From positions 62,001-126,000 of the forward strand of contig NZ_SGWW01000005.1 in assembly GCF_004216575.1 (NCBI RefSeq): 64,000 nt of DNA, given 5' to 3'. Below, piece by piece: positions 8,639 through 12,794 of this stretch; within the stretch, counting starts at the first letter, position 1, and every line of letters begins with the position of its first letter. This DNA is from Microcella putealis. GTDB taxonomy: Bacteria > Actinomycetota > Actinomycetes > Actinomycetales > Microbacteriaceae. Under the pieces are notes generated by a model. It was not told the DNA's origin, did not search any database, and saw nothing but the letters and a program-made list of their open reading frames with translations. The position numbers were made by a program, and so were the translations under genes.

Positions 8639-8669
8639 AAAAGTCCCGGGTTCGTACCCGGGGCTTTTT
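8639..8669. terminator. Bidirectional intrinsic terminator
   Basis: Stem AAAAGTCCCGGG with CCCGGGGCTTTT (one G-T wobble) around TTCGTA, followed by a T-run on the plus strand and by the matching A-run on the left. It lies between the convergent DUF7455 gene and the alr-like gene, so it can stop both. It is one of only two strong intrinsic terminators in the window. Confidence 0.85.
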
Positions 8670-8693
8670 CGTGTGTGCGCGCCTCTTCGCGGA

Positions 8694-9797
8694 CTAGCCG
8701 ACGAACTCGTCACCCACCGCGCGGGGAACCCGCGGCAGGATGCGCGCCGTGATTTCATCGCCCAGCGTCCCGATGGCGTCGCCCCACTCCCGCACGGTCT
8801 GCTCGCCGTGCGCGCCCGTTCCGAACAGGGTCGCCGTCTGGCCGACGGTGAGGAGCGCATCCGGGTCGGCGACCGTGAGCTCGTCGCGATCGACATCGAC
8901 GATGGGGAAACGCACGCCATCGACCGTGACGCTCACGAGGCCTGCGGCGAGCCGGGGAATGCCGTCGCCGTAGCCTGCCTGCACGATGCCGACACGCCCC
9001 GCGCGCGCGTCGTCGGAGCGCACCCCCACGACCGGCGCGGTCAAGGTCATGACGGGCTCGAGCCCGATGTCGCGCGGGGTGACCCCGTCGAACGAGGGAA
9101 TGCCCCAGCAGTGCCCGCCCATGCGCACCATGTCGAGGCGCACATCGGCACGACGGAGCCCCGCCGAGCTGGCGGCGAGGTGCCGTTCGATGCGAGTGAG
9201 CCCCGCCGCGCGCGCGAGCTCCACGCCGCGCTCGAAGCGGCGCAGGGCCTCGGTGTCGTCGTCTTCCGAGGCTTCGGCGATGTGCGTCCACACGCCGCGG
9301 GCCACGGCGAGGCCGTCGGCTTCGGCACGCGCCACGGCGTCGACCAGCGCGGGCCACTCCTCGGCCGTCGCGCCGTTACGGCGTAGACCCGTGTCGAGCT
9401 TGAGATGAAGGTGAGCGACCGCGTCGTGATCCCCCGCGGCACGACGCCGGCGGGTCGCGTCGAGCGCGCGCTCGAGTTCGCTCAGCCGCGAGATGCCGAG
9501 GTCGATGCGTGCGGCGATCGCCTCGTCGAACTGCTGCTCGGGCGCGTACAGCCAGGCGAGCACGCGCACCTCGGGCGGCACCCCGGCCGCGCGCAGCCGC
9601 AGGGCGGTCGCGAGGTCAAGAGCACCGAGGTCGGTGATGCCGTGCTGCTGCGCCACGCGGGCGACCGTGAGCGCTCCGTGCCCGTACGCGTCGGCCTTCA
9701 CGACGACCATGAGGCGAGCGGGGCTGACGGTCGCGCGCAGGTGGTCGATATTGCGCCCGAGCGCGCCGGTCGAGATGTGCGCGCGAAGGCCCGGCAT
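8694..9797 (-). CDS. alr: Alanine-racemase-like, catalytic barrel intact, C-terminal domain eroded
   Basis: A 367-residue fold-type III PLP enzyme, expected to interconvert L- and D-alanine (or a related amino acid) for peptidoglycan. The barrel is intact: the PLP lysine is in VVKADAYGHG (K34), the LKLDTGL lysine is at about 133, the THIAEA histidine at about 172, and the DMVR arginine at about 225. The C-terminal domain keeps GYGDG (Tyr about 276). It lacks the usual VSYG loop, and the GRVxMD segment is replaced by a VDVDRDE stretch, so the methionine that normally enters the partner active site is gone. The gene overlaps the preceding alr-like gene (TGATG) and ends the rpoD-murT-gatD run. 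The product may need the upstream paralogue. A GTG at 9800 is an alternative start. Confidence 0.85.
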   Translation of the reverse strand: MPGLRAHISTGALGRNIDHLRATVSPARLMVVVKADAYGHGALTVARVAQQHGITDLGALDLATALRLRAAGVPPEVRVLAWLYAPEQQFDEAIAARIDLGISRLSELERALDATRRRRAAGDHDAVAHLHLKLDTGLRRNGATAEEWPALVDAVARAEADGLAVARGVWTHIAEASEDDDTEALRRFERGVELARAAGLTRIERHLAASSAGLRRADVRLDMVRMGGHCWGIPSFDGVTPRDIGLEPVMTLTAPVVGVRSDDARAGRVGIVQAGYGDGIPRLAAGLVSVTVDGVRFPIVDVDRDELTVADPDALLTVGQTATLFGTGAHGEQTVREWGDAIGTLGDEITARILPRVPRAVGDEFVG

Positions 9798-10762
9798 CAC
9801 GAGGGCTCTCCGACGGCGCTGCGCCGCGGCCGCGCCGTGAGTCGGGTGGCGAGCTCGGCGCTGTGGGTACCGAGCCGTCGGGCGGCGTCAGCGATGTCGG
9901 GAGCGCCGGTGCGCGCATCCCCCCATACGACGACGCGGTCACCGACGGTGACCGACGCGTCGGCGCCGACGTCGAGCACGAAGGCGTCCATGGCGACGCG
10001 CCCGGCGATGGTGCGGGTCATGTTGCCCACCCGGGCGTCGAGAGTGTTGCCCGCGGCGCGGTCGAGACCGTCCGCGTAGCCGAGGCTCACGAGGGCGAGG
10101 GTCGTCGAGTCGGACGTGCGGTAGCGGTAGCCGTACGACACGCCCTCGTCGGCACCGACCGACTTGAGGCCGACCACGGGAGCCCAGAGGGTCATGACCG
10201 GCTCGGCCTCATTCAGCGGCAAGGATGGCGCGTCGCCGGCGTCGAGACCGAAAACGGCGGCGCCGAGAACGAGCGCGGGGTCGACGACGAGCAGCTCACT
10301 GCCGGCATCGCTCGCCGCCGACCGGAGCACCGACAGCTCGCCGCGGGTGATTCCCGGGGTGCCGCGGCCAGAATCGAGCACAACTGCGAGCGGGTTCGCG
10401 CCCTCGCTCAGCGCATTCTGTGCGCCCGCGAGGCTGCGATGGGCGATGAGCACCCCGGCATCGGCGAGCTCGGTCGCGGCGGCGTCCCCGAGGGGGTCAG
10501 CGCAGACGACGGTGAGCGACGCGTTCGCGGCGACGAGGGCGAGTACCTCCGTGACGCGCGGGACGAGCGCGTGCGTGCATCCGTGTGTGGCGGCAATCGG
10601 CGCGACGCGCTGAGCGCCGCAGCCGAATGCGTCGGCACCGAGGTCGATGATGCGCGGCGCATCCGACGGGAGCGCCGCGACGGCGCGCTCGACGTTGCGG
10701 GCCAGCGCCGAGACATCGATCGCAACCTCGCGAAACGCCGGCGCGGCCTCGCCGGTGGTCAC
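9797..10762 (-). CDS. Alanine racemase paralogue without PLP lysine, C-terminal domain intact
   Basis: A 321-residue alanine-racemase-family protein, about 50 residues shorter than usual. The C-terminal domain is canonical: EGVSYGYRY near 206, SLGYADG with Tyr229, and GRVAMDAFVLDV with Met258. The barrel is degenerate. The VVKADAYGHG site reads IDLGADAFGCG, so the PLP lysine is Gly42. The DTGMGRLG site reads DSGRGTPG. The histidine, Asn-Ser and Arg active-site segments are deleted or replaced. It cannot be a self-sufficient PLP racemase. It begins GTG, overlaps gatD by 4 nt (GTGA) and overlaps the next alr-like gene, so the two racemase-like proteins are made in tandem. A heterodimer partner role is my inference. 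Confidence 0.85.
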   Translation of the reverse strand: MTTGEAAPAFREVAIDVSALARNVERAVAALPSDAPRIIDLGADAFGCGAQRVAPIAATHGCTHALVPRVTEVLALVAANASLTVVCADPLGDAAATELADAGVLIAHRSLAGAQNALSEGANPLAVVLDSGRGTPGITRGELSVLRSAASDAGSELLVVDPALVLGAAVFGLDAGDAPSLPLNEAEPVMTLWAPVVGLKSVGADEGVSYGYRYRTSDSTTLALVSLGYADGLDRAAGNTLDARVGNMTRTIAGRVAMDAFVLDVGADASVTVGDRVVVWGDARTGAPDIADAARRLGTHSAELATRLTARPRRSAVGEPS

Positions 10763-11505
10763 GCGCGGTCGAGGCTCACGCGAGCGAGCCGCGCGAGGTG
10801 CTGGCGGGCACCCCGGGCGACCGCGTCGATGCGATCGTGGTCGGCGGTGCGGGTGTACTCGGCGCCCTGTCGCGCAAAGGCATCGCGCAACAGCACGTCC
10901 GCGAGCAGCGGGTTCATGGCGAGAGCCGGCCCGTGCATGTGGGTGCCGATCACGACGCCCGCGCGATACCCCTCCGTCGAGCCGTCGTTGCCCACCCCGC
11001 GCACGACGGTGCCGAGGGGCGCGGCGTCGGCGTCCAGGTGAACGCGCGCCGCGTGGTTTTCGACACCGATGAGGCGGCCCTCGGCACTGTCGACGGTGAA
11101 CTCGTCGGTGACGATCTGGCGATCGCTCGGCTCGGTCGTCACGGGAAAGATCGCGGCACCGCGCAGCTCGGAGCCGTCGCGATGGCGCACCGAGCGCCCC
11201 AGCAGGTGGAAACCCGCGTTGACGGCAAACACCGCGGCGCCGCCCTCGATCGCGGCCGTGAGCGGCGCAGTCAGCCCGGGCAGCGACGCGGCGATCGCGC
11301 GCTGCGCCGATGCCGGACCGGTTCCGACCGTGATGATGTCGGCATTCGCGGGGATGCTCTCCCCCGGCTCGACGCGCGTCACCGTCACCGCCGCGCCGGC
11401 GAGCGTTGCGCGCCGGTCGAGAACGGCAATGTTGCCCATGTCGCCGTTCAGCATCAGGTGTCCCGGAAACAGCTCGACGAGGTGGATGGTCGGGTTATCG
11501 GTCAC
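10759..11505 (-). CDS. gatD: GatD-like glutamine amidotransferase without catalytic cysteine
   Basis: A 248-residue member of the CobB/CobQ-type class I glutaminase family that partners MurT. In Staphylococcus and Streptococcus, GatD takes ammonia from glutamine for amidation of D-Glu in lipid II. The fold is recognisable: YGDIGN-like NGDMGN near 20, ENHAAR near 149, and a C-terminal GTHMHGPALAMNP with the usual catalytic His (H191). The nucleophile motif CGxYQ reads VNAGFH, so Cys is Asn96. The GGGGQD-like substrate loop reads GTGPAS. Glutaminase activity is therefore very unlikely. It starts GTG and overlaps murT by GTGA. It may be a structural partner or carry a different substrate. Confidence 0.85.
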   Translation of the reverse strand: MTDNPTIHLVELFPGHLMLNGDMGNIAVLDRRATLAGAAVTVTRVEPGESIPANADIITVGTGPASAQRAIAASLPGLTAPLTAAIEGGAAVFAVNAGFHLLGRSVRHRDGSELRGAAIFPVTTEPSDRQIVTDEFTVDSAEGRLIGVENHAARVHLDADAAPLGTVVRGVGNDGSTEGYRAGVVIGTHMHGPALAMNPLLADVLLRDAFARQGAEYTRTADHDRIDAVARGARQHLARLARVSLDRA

Positions 11506-12794
11506 GCGGCACCCGCCTCGAGGTCGCGGTAGCCGAGATAACGGCGCACGAGAATCATCTGGTCGTAATCGAGAATCAGCGTGTGGCGACCCGACGCCGG
11601 CCTGGGCCCGTCCAGCAGAGACTGCACGGCCTTCTCCACGTCGGTCTCGGTGCGCTCATACGGGATGCCGGCGTACTCGAGGCGCAGCGCCAGGAAGACG
11701 GCTTTCGGCCCCGAGAGGCACTCGACGCGCTCGATGATCGACAGGTCAGCGGCGTACAGCCAGCTGGGGTCGCGGCTGTGCTCGTCAAACGCCATGAGAA
11801 CCGAGTCGGGCGTCGCGGTAAAGCCATCGAGGTTCATCTGCAGACTGGCGAGGCTCTTCATCAAGACGATCTCGACCTCGCGGTCGCCGACCGTGATCAA
11901 CTCGCCGCGCCCGTAGACCGTCTTCATGCTGCCGAGCGCCGCGACGGCCGTGTCGACCGAAAAGTCGTCGCCGAACGCTGCCTCGGACACGGCGATCGCC
12001 GCGGCCGCGTCGACGGCGTTGTGCAACCCCCGCGCCGAGAGCGTGAGGTCGTGGGAGTCGTCGTGCACGCGCAGAGTGACCTCCGCGCCCTCGGAACGCA
12101 TCACCTCGACCGCGACCGGACGGTCGACAGCCACCGTGCCGGCAGCCTCGGCGTCGTAGTTGCGCGCGAGAACCTGACCGTGCTTGGCGGCACCCAAAAC
12201 CGAGTCCGCCACGCCGAACCAGACGACGTCGCGGCCCTCATCGGCGATCAGCCGGTCGCCGAGCGCGCCGAGAAACGCGTCGTCACGGTTGAGCACGAGC
12301 GTGCCGTCGATCTGCCGGGCAATGCGGTCGAACATGCCGGCGACTCGGTCGGGCTCGAAGAGCCGGTAGATCTGGTCGATCTGCACGTTCAGCATCACCC
12401 CGGCGCGCGGCTTGAGCGCTCGGCAAATGACCTCGCCGTACGCCTCGTCAACCTCGACCACGCCGATGTCGAAGGGCAAGCGACCCGTCAGAGTCAGGCT
12501 GCCGAGGAGCGACGACGCGACGCCCTGGGGCATGTTCGCGCCCGTCGGGTTGGTGAAGACCCGATCGCCGTGCGCGGAGACGATGCCGGTGACCATGTTG
12601 GTCGTCGTCGACTTGCCGTTCGACCCGAGCACGACAATGACGCCGTGCTCGAGTTGAGCGGTTGCTCGAGCAATGAAGTCGGGCATGAGCTTCAGCACGA
12701 CATACCCGGGGAAGGCCGAGCCGCCGCCGCGCAGACGCGCCGCCACCCGCAGGAACTTGCCCAGCAGGGTGACGAGAATGAGGGATGCGCGCAT
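11502..12794 (-). CDS. murT: MurT-like Mur ligase (DUF1727) without zinc ribbon
   Basis: A 430-residue Mur-ligase-family protein with C-terminal DUF1727. Canonical MurT activates the D-Glu alpha-carboxyl of lipid II with ATP. The P-loop GSNGKSTTTN (K61), VVEVDEAYGE (about 113-122) and NRDDAFLG (about 170) are present. The central-domain Cys4 zinc ribbon usual for MurT is absent; the protein has no CxxC at all. The KNPAG-like motif reads KSLAS, and the DUF1727 segment reads FDEHSRDPSWLYAADL. ATP-dependent ligase activity remains plausible, but the amine donor and partner surface have changed. It begins 5 nt after the rpoD stop and overlaps gatD by 4 nt. Confidence 0.85.
   Translation of the reverse strand: MRASLILVTLLGKFLRVAARLRGGGSAFPGYVVLKLMPDFIARATAQLEHGVIVVLGSNGKSTTTNMVTGIVSAHGDRVFTNPTGANMPQGVASSLLGSLTLTGRLPFDIGVVEVDEAYGEVICRALKPRAGVMLNVQIDQIYRLFEPDRVAGMFDRIARQIDGTLVLNRDDAFLGALGDRLIADEGRDVVWFGVADSVLGAAKHGQVLARNYDAEAAGTVAVDRPVAVEVMRSEGAEVTLRVHDDSHDLTLSARGLHNAVDAAAAIAVSEAAFGDDFSVDTAVAALGSMKTVYGRGELITVGDREVEIVLMKSLASLQMNLDGFTATPDSVLMAFDEHSRDPSWLYAADLSIIERVECLSGPKAVFLALRLEYAGIPYERTETDVEKAVQSLLDGPRPASGRHTLILDYDQMILVRRYLGYRDLEAGAA

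Follow-up and report, generated by a model that had tools for sequence, protein, structure and literature searches.

Within a 64,000-nucleotide stretch of the Microcella putealis genome (assembly GCF_004216575.1, contig NZ_SGWW01000005.1, positions 62,001 to 126,000; hereafter the window), two overlapping minus-strand genes encode paralogues of alanine racemase, designated P2 (upstream) and P1 (downstream). Textbooks describe alanine racemase as a homodimer in which both subunits contribute to each active site at their interface. Residue conservation in P1 and P2 points instead, as by far the best reading and with strong comparative support, to a heterodimer with a single composite site, in which P1 would supply the barrel carrying pyridoxal 5'-phosphate (PLP) and P2 the residues donated in trans by the C-terminal domain. 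The same complementary pattern was found in all 40 aligned pairs, indicating that it does not result from chance decay. The pair comprises the following features (bp, base pairs).

9797..10762, minus strand: P2, upstream subunit, 321 residues; putative donor of the C-terminal domain, its barrel shrunken and devoid of the PLP lysine
8694..9800, minus strand: P1, downstream subunit, 368 residues; PLP barrel complete in its catalytic residues, C-terminal domain lacking the Tyr265 loop and the Met312 segment
9797..9800, minus strand: P2/P1 stop/start overlap of 4 bp, sequence GTGATG, read as GTGA/TGATG
9675..9698, minus strand: KADAYGHG motif of P1 with the PLP lysine, Lys35; Lys in 40/40 P1
8757..8759, minus strand: Asp348 of P1, aligned with Tyr354 of GsAlr, which gates specificity; in the P1 set, Asp 29, Glu 10, gap 1 (n = 40)
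10637..10639, minus strand: Gly42 of P2, at the PLP lysine position; Lys in 0/40 P2
10133..10135, minus strand: Tyr210 of P2, equivalent of the catalytic Tyr265; Tyr in 40/40 P2
9989..9991, minus strand: Met258 of P2, equivalent of Met312; Met in 40/40 P2

Complementary half-sites in P1 and P2

Alignment of P1 with the canonical Alr of the same genome revealed the LDTGLRRNG segment and the barrel His, Ser, and Arg residues, together with a gap at GVSYGxxYRT and the lack of GRVAMD. The PLP lysine is Lys35 if numbered from the GTG start codon and Lys34 if the ATG located one codon later is taken as the start. In P2, the GVSYG and GRVAMD motifs of the C-terminal domain were intact, and the barrel comprised 184 residues versus 233 in the canonical Alr. 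Both open reading frames (ORFs) lie where the first-pass annotation of the window had placed them, and the alignment agrees with its description of a downstream protein retaining the PLP Lys, LDTG, His, and Arg without VSYG and GRVxMD, and of an upstream protein with Gly in place of the PLP Lys and a loss of about 50 barrel residues (49 by our count). The TGATG overlap that it reported is present. Its description of the upstream C-terminal domain as intact was borne out, as was Met258, whereas Tyr229, which it took for the catalytic residue, lies in the sequence GYADG and is the equivalent of Tyr284, the catalytic tyrosine being Tyr210.

Both chains contain the two Pfam domains that define fold-type-III racemases (PF01168 plus PF00842). 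Scores against Ala_racemase_N and Ala_racemase_C were 155.5 and 53.1 bits for P1 and 27.8 and 104.6 bits for P2, above the respective cut-offs of 24.1 and 25 bits. Single-chain AlphaFold2 models were confident, with predicted local distance difference test values of 94.7 for P1 and 92.5 for P2, and the P2 model matched solved alanine racemases with Z scores of up to 29.9. A PF01168 search of the genome returned six places, including P1, P2, a complete canonical alr (L001, on contig C3 from 467,585 onward), and one weak match; two further genes are presumably YggS-like and D-threonine-aldolase-like, and the genes flanking the canonical alr are taken to be glmS and tsaE. With NCBIfam alr profile TIGR00492 (cut-off, 168 bits), the canonical gene scored 295.3 bits, whereas P1 (149.1) and P2 (105.3) fell short. 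Neither P1 nor P2 singly combines the Lys and the catalytic Tyr of an alanine racemase, P1 having only the Lys and P2 only the Tyr; jointly they have both.

To define the distribution of the pair, 120 Microbacteriaceae genomes were searched, the stretches around the matches were fetched, and their ORFs were read. P1 was present in 34 genomes, and P2 was the adjacent upstream gene in 34/34; the first-pass annotation had left it to be checked whether the pair occurs in other Microbacteriaceae. Another 15 genomes carry, beside the canonical alr, a full-length alr duplicate with Asp or Glu at position 354 (D/E354; L080, L081, L083, L086, L089, L090, L111, and L113-L120). Both counts may be undercounts, since extra Alr matches in 13 genomes (G012, G014, G027, G039, G043, G097, G111, G115, G040, G071, G057, G073, and G106) were unread by residue. 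An order-wide profile search with P1 (E <= 1e-115, 297 genomes) matched six genomes, all Microbacteriaceae; of the three read among them, G000 and G385 have split pairs and G078 a canonical gene. This search is no proof of absence elsewhere, because its threshold misses divergent P1 such as that of G106 (2.2e-99).

The 40 aligned P1-P2 pairs came from the window, the sampled genomes of the family, and six named loci (one duplicate dropped, one bearing two pairs). All are from Microbacteriaceae, plus L042 from a metagenome-assembled genome (MAG) labelled Micrococcales only. The same alignment included, as controls, the 15 full-length D/E354 racemases and 27 other Alr proteins. Two rows were excluded: L040 duplicates the record of L074, and L127 is a canonical alr that is broken in a low-quality genome. 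The latter gene, in genome G009 (L127:3896-5356), lies in two frames, probably owing to a sequencing error. L041 and L075 are near-duplicates. P1 of L098 and of L108 reach the contig end, and profile A2 was built without the truncated P1 of L108. The L125 pair (G106), added after the profiles, is in the residue table and absent from the overlap count, and the L169 pair (G385, order sample) is outside the 40.

Lys39, Tyr43, Arg136, His166, Ser204, and Arg219 were each present in 40/40 P1, and Tyr265 in 0/40. In P2, Tyr265, Arg290, and Met312 were each found in 40/40 and Arg309 in 39/40, position 284 being Tyr in 32 and Phe in 8. Few barrel sites were retained in P2 (Lys39 in 0/40, His166 in 1/40, Arg136 in 2/40, and Arg219 in 4/40); the barrel columns of this alignment are uncertain where P2 is shortened, the loss of the lysine being certain. 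In each of the 40 pairs, then, both proteins had kept their own half-site, whereas residues crucial to the opposite half were gone. Eight of the nine invariant residues of P2 fall within the three motifs bearing Tyr265, Arg290, and Met312, with S209-Y210-G211 among them. P2 ranges in length from 389 down to 182 residues (<=260 residues in 22/39; start codons were chosen by script). Among the controls, 15/15 full-length D/E354 racemases retained every listed site except 354, and Lys39, Arg136, His166, Arg219, Tyr265, and Met312 were present in 27/27 other Alr.

Solved structures of alanine racemases show two monomers contributing to every site, one with its N-domain and the other with its C-domain (PMC3245724), as the first-pass annotation had stated for barrel and C-terminal Tyr/Met. 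The first monomer provides the PLP phosphate contacts, Tyr354 among them, and the second provides Tyr265', Tyr284', Arg290', and Met312' (PMC3245724); Arg309' likewise comes from the opposite monomer (PMC3485190). Since solved sites combine one chain's N-domain with the other chain's C-domain, P1 and P2 can be read as opposite sides of one site. The predicted complex is a fold-type-III PLP racemase of two different subunits, with a single working site in each dimer. P1 would give the barrel, with PLP bound to Lys35 and equivalents of Tyr43, Arg136, His166, Ser204, and Arg219, and P2 would give in trans the catalytic Tyr265' together with Tyr284', Arg290', Arg309', and Met312'. The mirror-image second site would be dead, because P2 has no PLP lysine and P1 no tyrosine loop. 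The proposal that one complete site can be built only on pairing thus draws support from the complementary residues of 40 related pairs; physical pairing, its obligate nature, and activity are predictions from sequence conservation. Homodimeric Alr/DadX enzymes (TIGR00492, PF01168 plus PF00842) resemble the pair in fold, in the composite site at the interface, in the residues involved, and in close sequence relationship; they differ in carrying both half-sites on each chain, whereas in the pair the half-sites would be split over two paralogues, leaving a single site in each dimer, and position 354 is Asp or Glu.

Two observations weigh against such a strict division of labor. First, P1 retains some of the trans residues, with Arg290 in 7/40 and Tyr or Phe at position 284 in 22/40; Arg309 occurs in 1/40 P1, and the Met312 position is variable, with Met present once, in L107. 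Second, P2 evolves faster than P1: when the two closest pairs of genomes were compared, its nonsynonymous substitution rate (dN) was 1.7x and 2.9x higher.

Position 354 and the substrate

Alanine specificity has been attributed to the inner-layer tyrosines 265' and 354 (PMC3485190). At position 354, the 39 readable P1 proteins had Asp (29/39) or Glu (10/39), and the full-length tandem homologues had Asp (9) or Glu (6) (n = 15), versus Tyr (22), His (3), or Trp (2) in the other Alr (n = 27). P1 of the window, with Asp348, lacks the gating tyrosine of alanine racemases. An additional Alr paralogue with His at 354 and Phe at 43 was seen in two genomes (L130:4181-5344 and L131:3479-4657).

The first-pass annotation had left it to be checked whether the genome holds a third, complete alr, and the gene on contig C3 is one. 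Its presence makes a shift of substrate likely and says nothing against pairing. With this complete gene present, the cell is unlikely to use the pair as its main alanine racemase; together with the Asp or Glu at the gating position of P1, the gene makes alanine an improbable substrate. An acid at 354 suits a diamino acid; if the heterodimer is accepted, ornithine, 2,4-diaminobutyrate (Dab), or lysine is, with moderate confidence, the likely type of substrate.

The lysine racemase Lyr and the Bar/Bsr racemases are, like P1, fold-type-III enzymes without the gating Tyr354, and Lyr prefers a diamino acid. These enzymes are complete chains with a small residue (Thr or Ala) at position 354, unlike P1 with its Asp or Glu (PMC3485190), and P1 scores higher against alanine racemases than against them. 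In lysine racemase, the position is Thr391, which contacts the side-chain nitrogen of D-Lys in a docked model (PMC3485190). The full-length D/E354 racemase, which other Microbacteriaceae carry at their glmS locus, shares the barrel clade and D/E354 with P1; unlike the split pair, it has Tyr265, Arg290, and Met312 in one chain (15/15) and presumably forms a homodimer. These full-length enzymes are probably the homodimeric counterparts of the split pair. The split pair (34/120) and the full-length gene (15/120) never co-occurred (Fisher p 0.005, in a test that ignores phylogeny), as expected if the two replace each other.

L038 and L101 have a gene of the class-III aminotransferase family (Pfam) directly beside the pair, and L169 has one within the rpoD-parE interval that also contains its pair. 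We take this gene to be EctB-like, the expected Dab maker. L038, from a single MAG, has two different split pairs (L038:693-3067 and L038:5780-8547), and the EctB-like gene directly follows one of them.

Several points tell against a diamino acid. Lysine racemase with Thr391 changed to Tyr retains 53% of its Lys activity, and according to its authors Ser394 may outweigh Thr391 for specificity (PMC3485190). The mutual exclusion of the split and full-length forms is weakened by the disregard of phylogeny in the test noted above. EctB showed no genome-wide enrichment (6/34 split, 3/15 tandem, and 12/71 other genomes) and was discarded as a predictor of the pair; L172 has EctB in the rpoD-parE interval and no pair. 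Finally, no D/E354 racemase was detected in 71/120 Microbacteriaceae, classed as having neither form by match counts, with few inspected. D-Diamino acids are known from several genera of the family (PMC5945732, PMC10757982), and these 71 genomes therefore imply other routes to them or another substrate for the pair.

The alternative that survives best keeps the heterodimer and assigns it to alanine, as a second source of D-Ala, or to serine. P1 and P2 are nearest, in fold and sequence, to actinobacterial alanine racemases, and Gln at this position in one alanine racemase gives serine activity, which is lowered by Tyr (PMC4517790). We nevertheless regard this alternative as unlikely, in view of the complete canonical alr and of the EctB-like neighbors in three loci. 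A further reason is the acid found at 354 in 39/39 readable P1 and 15/15 full-length homologues, a constancy that hints at selection for a basic side chain.

Linkage, phylogeny, and selection

The genes of the pair overlapped in 37/39 measured cases, by exactly 4 bp in 27/39 (with script-chosen start codons). In a tree of the barrels, the other Alr fell on one side, and P1 and the full-length D/E354 genes on the opposite side (SH-aLRT support, 97). A group of 20 P1 (plus nine full-length genes; support, 86) and a group of 20 P2 (support, 80) came from the same loci, indicating that the partner types travel together: partner subtypes co-segregate in the trees, with modest branch support. The full-length genes were nested at two places among P1. 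Topology tests rejected neither a single P1 clade (p-AU 0.068) nor a single clade of full-length genes (p-AU 0.094), and for that reason independent splits are not claimed. In five genome comparisons, the ratio of nonsynonymous to synonymous substitution rates (dN/dS) ranged from 0.09 to 0.31 in P1, with five values, and from 0.18 to 0.49 in P2, for which four were computable; several dS values were near saturation. Both proteins are under purifying selection.

These data bear on three readings in which P1 and P2 would not jointly form a site. The first holds that P1 is another homodimeric fold-type-III enzyme, such as a decarboxylase or a one-base enzyme, for which P2 would be structural. Some fold-type-III enzymes work without the Alr tyrosine, and P1 retains the PLP-binding barrel residues; the conservation of Tyr265, Arg290, and Met312 in 40/40 P2 despite the loss of much of the barrel would be left unexplained, making this reading highly improbable. 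Slightly weaker still is the pairing of P1 with the canonical Alr instead of P2, conceivable in principle since canonical Alr bears the trans residues. A decoy P2 would have no need of the motifs that hold eight of its nine invariant residues, and the two genes are adjacent in 34/34 genomes, mostly overlapping, and co-segregate in the trees. Decay of both genes, or of P2 alone, into pseudogenes would account for the residue losses and the faster evolution of P2 and is scarcely credible; it was rejected in view of open frames for both genes in 40 pairs (P1 of L098 and L108 up to the contig end), dN/dS values that never reached 0.5 wherever one was obtained, conserved key residues, and confident models.

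For the heterodimeric racemase, the nearest functional analogy would be the trypanosomatid prozyme pairs, S-adenosylmethionine decarboxylase/prozyme and deoxyhypusine synthase with its dead paralogue, in which a non-catalytic paralogue is needed for activity (PMC5201418, PMC3663545). The prozyme partner relieves autoinhibition or activates allosterically, whereas P2 would donate the catalytic acid/base, and fold and organisms differ (PMC5201418, PMC3663545). Among the titles and abstract beginnings of the open-access literature, most subscription journals lying outside it, no description of a split or heterodimeric alanine racemase was found. Bacillus stearothermophilus alanine racemase engineered as two fragments can reportedly be active with separate N- and C-domain chains; that enzyme is an artificial, symmetric cut of one gene, in contrast to the two diverged paralogues P1 and P2.

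Neighboring ligase-like genes and a possible link to the type-B peptidoglycan bridge

P2 and P1 end a run of four minus-strand genes, murT, gatD, P2, and P1, in which each junction is a 4-bp overlap. The gene before the run is presumably the sigma factor gene rpoD and the gene downstream parE. Additional features of the window and examples from locus L073 are as follows.

11502..12794, minus strand: murT-like gene, opening the overlapping four-gene run
10759..11505, minus strand: gatD-like gene, with 4-bp overlaps with murT and P2; Asn at the Cys94 position
8640..8672, no strand: GC-rich inverted repeat flanked by A and T runs, just past P1, identified by eye and unscored; read as a putative terminator
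L073:5339-6040: example of a CofE-like (F420_ligase) gene
L073:6098-7123: example of an ATPgrasp_ST-family gene

At the 39 loci with the 40 pairs, we found parE in 38, rpoD in 33, murT or gatD in 24, and a CofE-like gene in 11. The murT/gatD and CofE-like genes were found together at 0/39 loci, and neither was present at 4/39, including L098 and L108. Nine of the 11 CofE loci also had an ATPgrasp_ST gene close to the pair (L037, L038, L073, L078, L085, L088, L093, L101, and L106). Genome-wide, with thresholds of E <= 1e-25 for MurT homologues and E <= 1e-10 for CofE-like proteins, all 34 split and 15 full-length genomes had a MurT homologue (39) or a CofE-like gene (10). The ligase gene is sometimes away from the pair: the CofE-like match of G053 is weak and lies elsewhere on the contig, and MurT of G006 is ~240 kb off. 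The overlap between MurT (86/120) and CofE-like (17/120) genomes was 0 at these thresholds, as if the two were alternative enzymes for one step.

Staphylococcus aureus GatD requires Cys94, the C94A mutant being without glutaminase activity (PMC5871853). Asn aligns with this residue in the GatD of the window, which thus lacks the cysteine of a glutamine-dependent MurT-GatD. Among 37 distinct readable GatD segments, taken at the pair loci and among the 30 top-scoring matches, Cys was found in one (L153, genome G059). To judge from this residue, MurT-GatD may not act here as a glutamine-dependent amidotransferase.

In the type-B walls of Microbacteriaceae, D-Glu is linked to the bridge residue. 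The lack of Cys94 in GatD, the adjacent and likely diamino-acid racemase, and these type-B walls together suggest that MurT-GatD joins an amino acid instead. B2 peptidoglycan with Dab or D-ornithine has been reported in Microbacteriaceae (PMC5945732, PMC10757982), and D-ornithine, Dab, and L-Lys all occur in the family (PMC5945732, PMC7033078, PMC6113628, PMC10757982). In the portions of the Gryllotalpicola and Marisediminicola literature available, no peptidoglycan type was found for the exact strains. The racemase would provide the D-form of a diamino acid for the bridge, and the neighboring ligase, either MurT-GatD without the glutaminase Cys or the CofE-like protein (F420 gamma-glutamyl ligase family), would attach the bridge residue, so that the alpha-carboxyl of D-Glu receives an amino acid in place of ammonia. 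A role in type-B bridges is plausible, if tentative. More tentative still is the combined proposal, in which a split diamino-acid racemase and a repurposed MurT-GatD or CofE-like ligase would be the missing machinery of the type-B bridge. Open-access titles and abstract beginnings on diamino-acid racemases, type-B peptidoglycan, and MurT-GatD in Microbacteriaceae contained no description of the split racemase or of such a ligase.

In the course of evolution, the half-sites of a racemase have apparently been assigned to separate genes and the redundant site has been lost; the lengths of P2 still show a range of states. The pair would offer a case of complementary degeneration of duplicates at one active site, for which the full-length version in sister lineages serves as a control. 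For the Microbacteriaceae, the racemase and its neighboring ligases would be concrete candidates for making and attaching the D-diamino acids of type-B walls.

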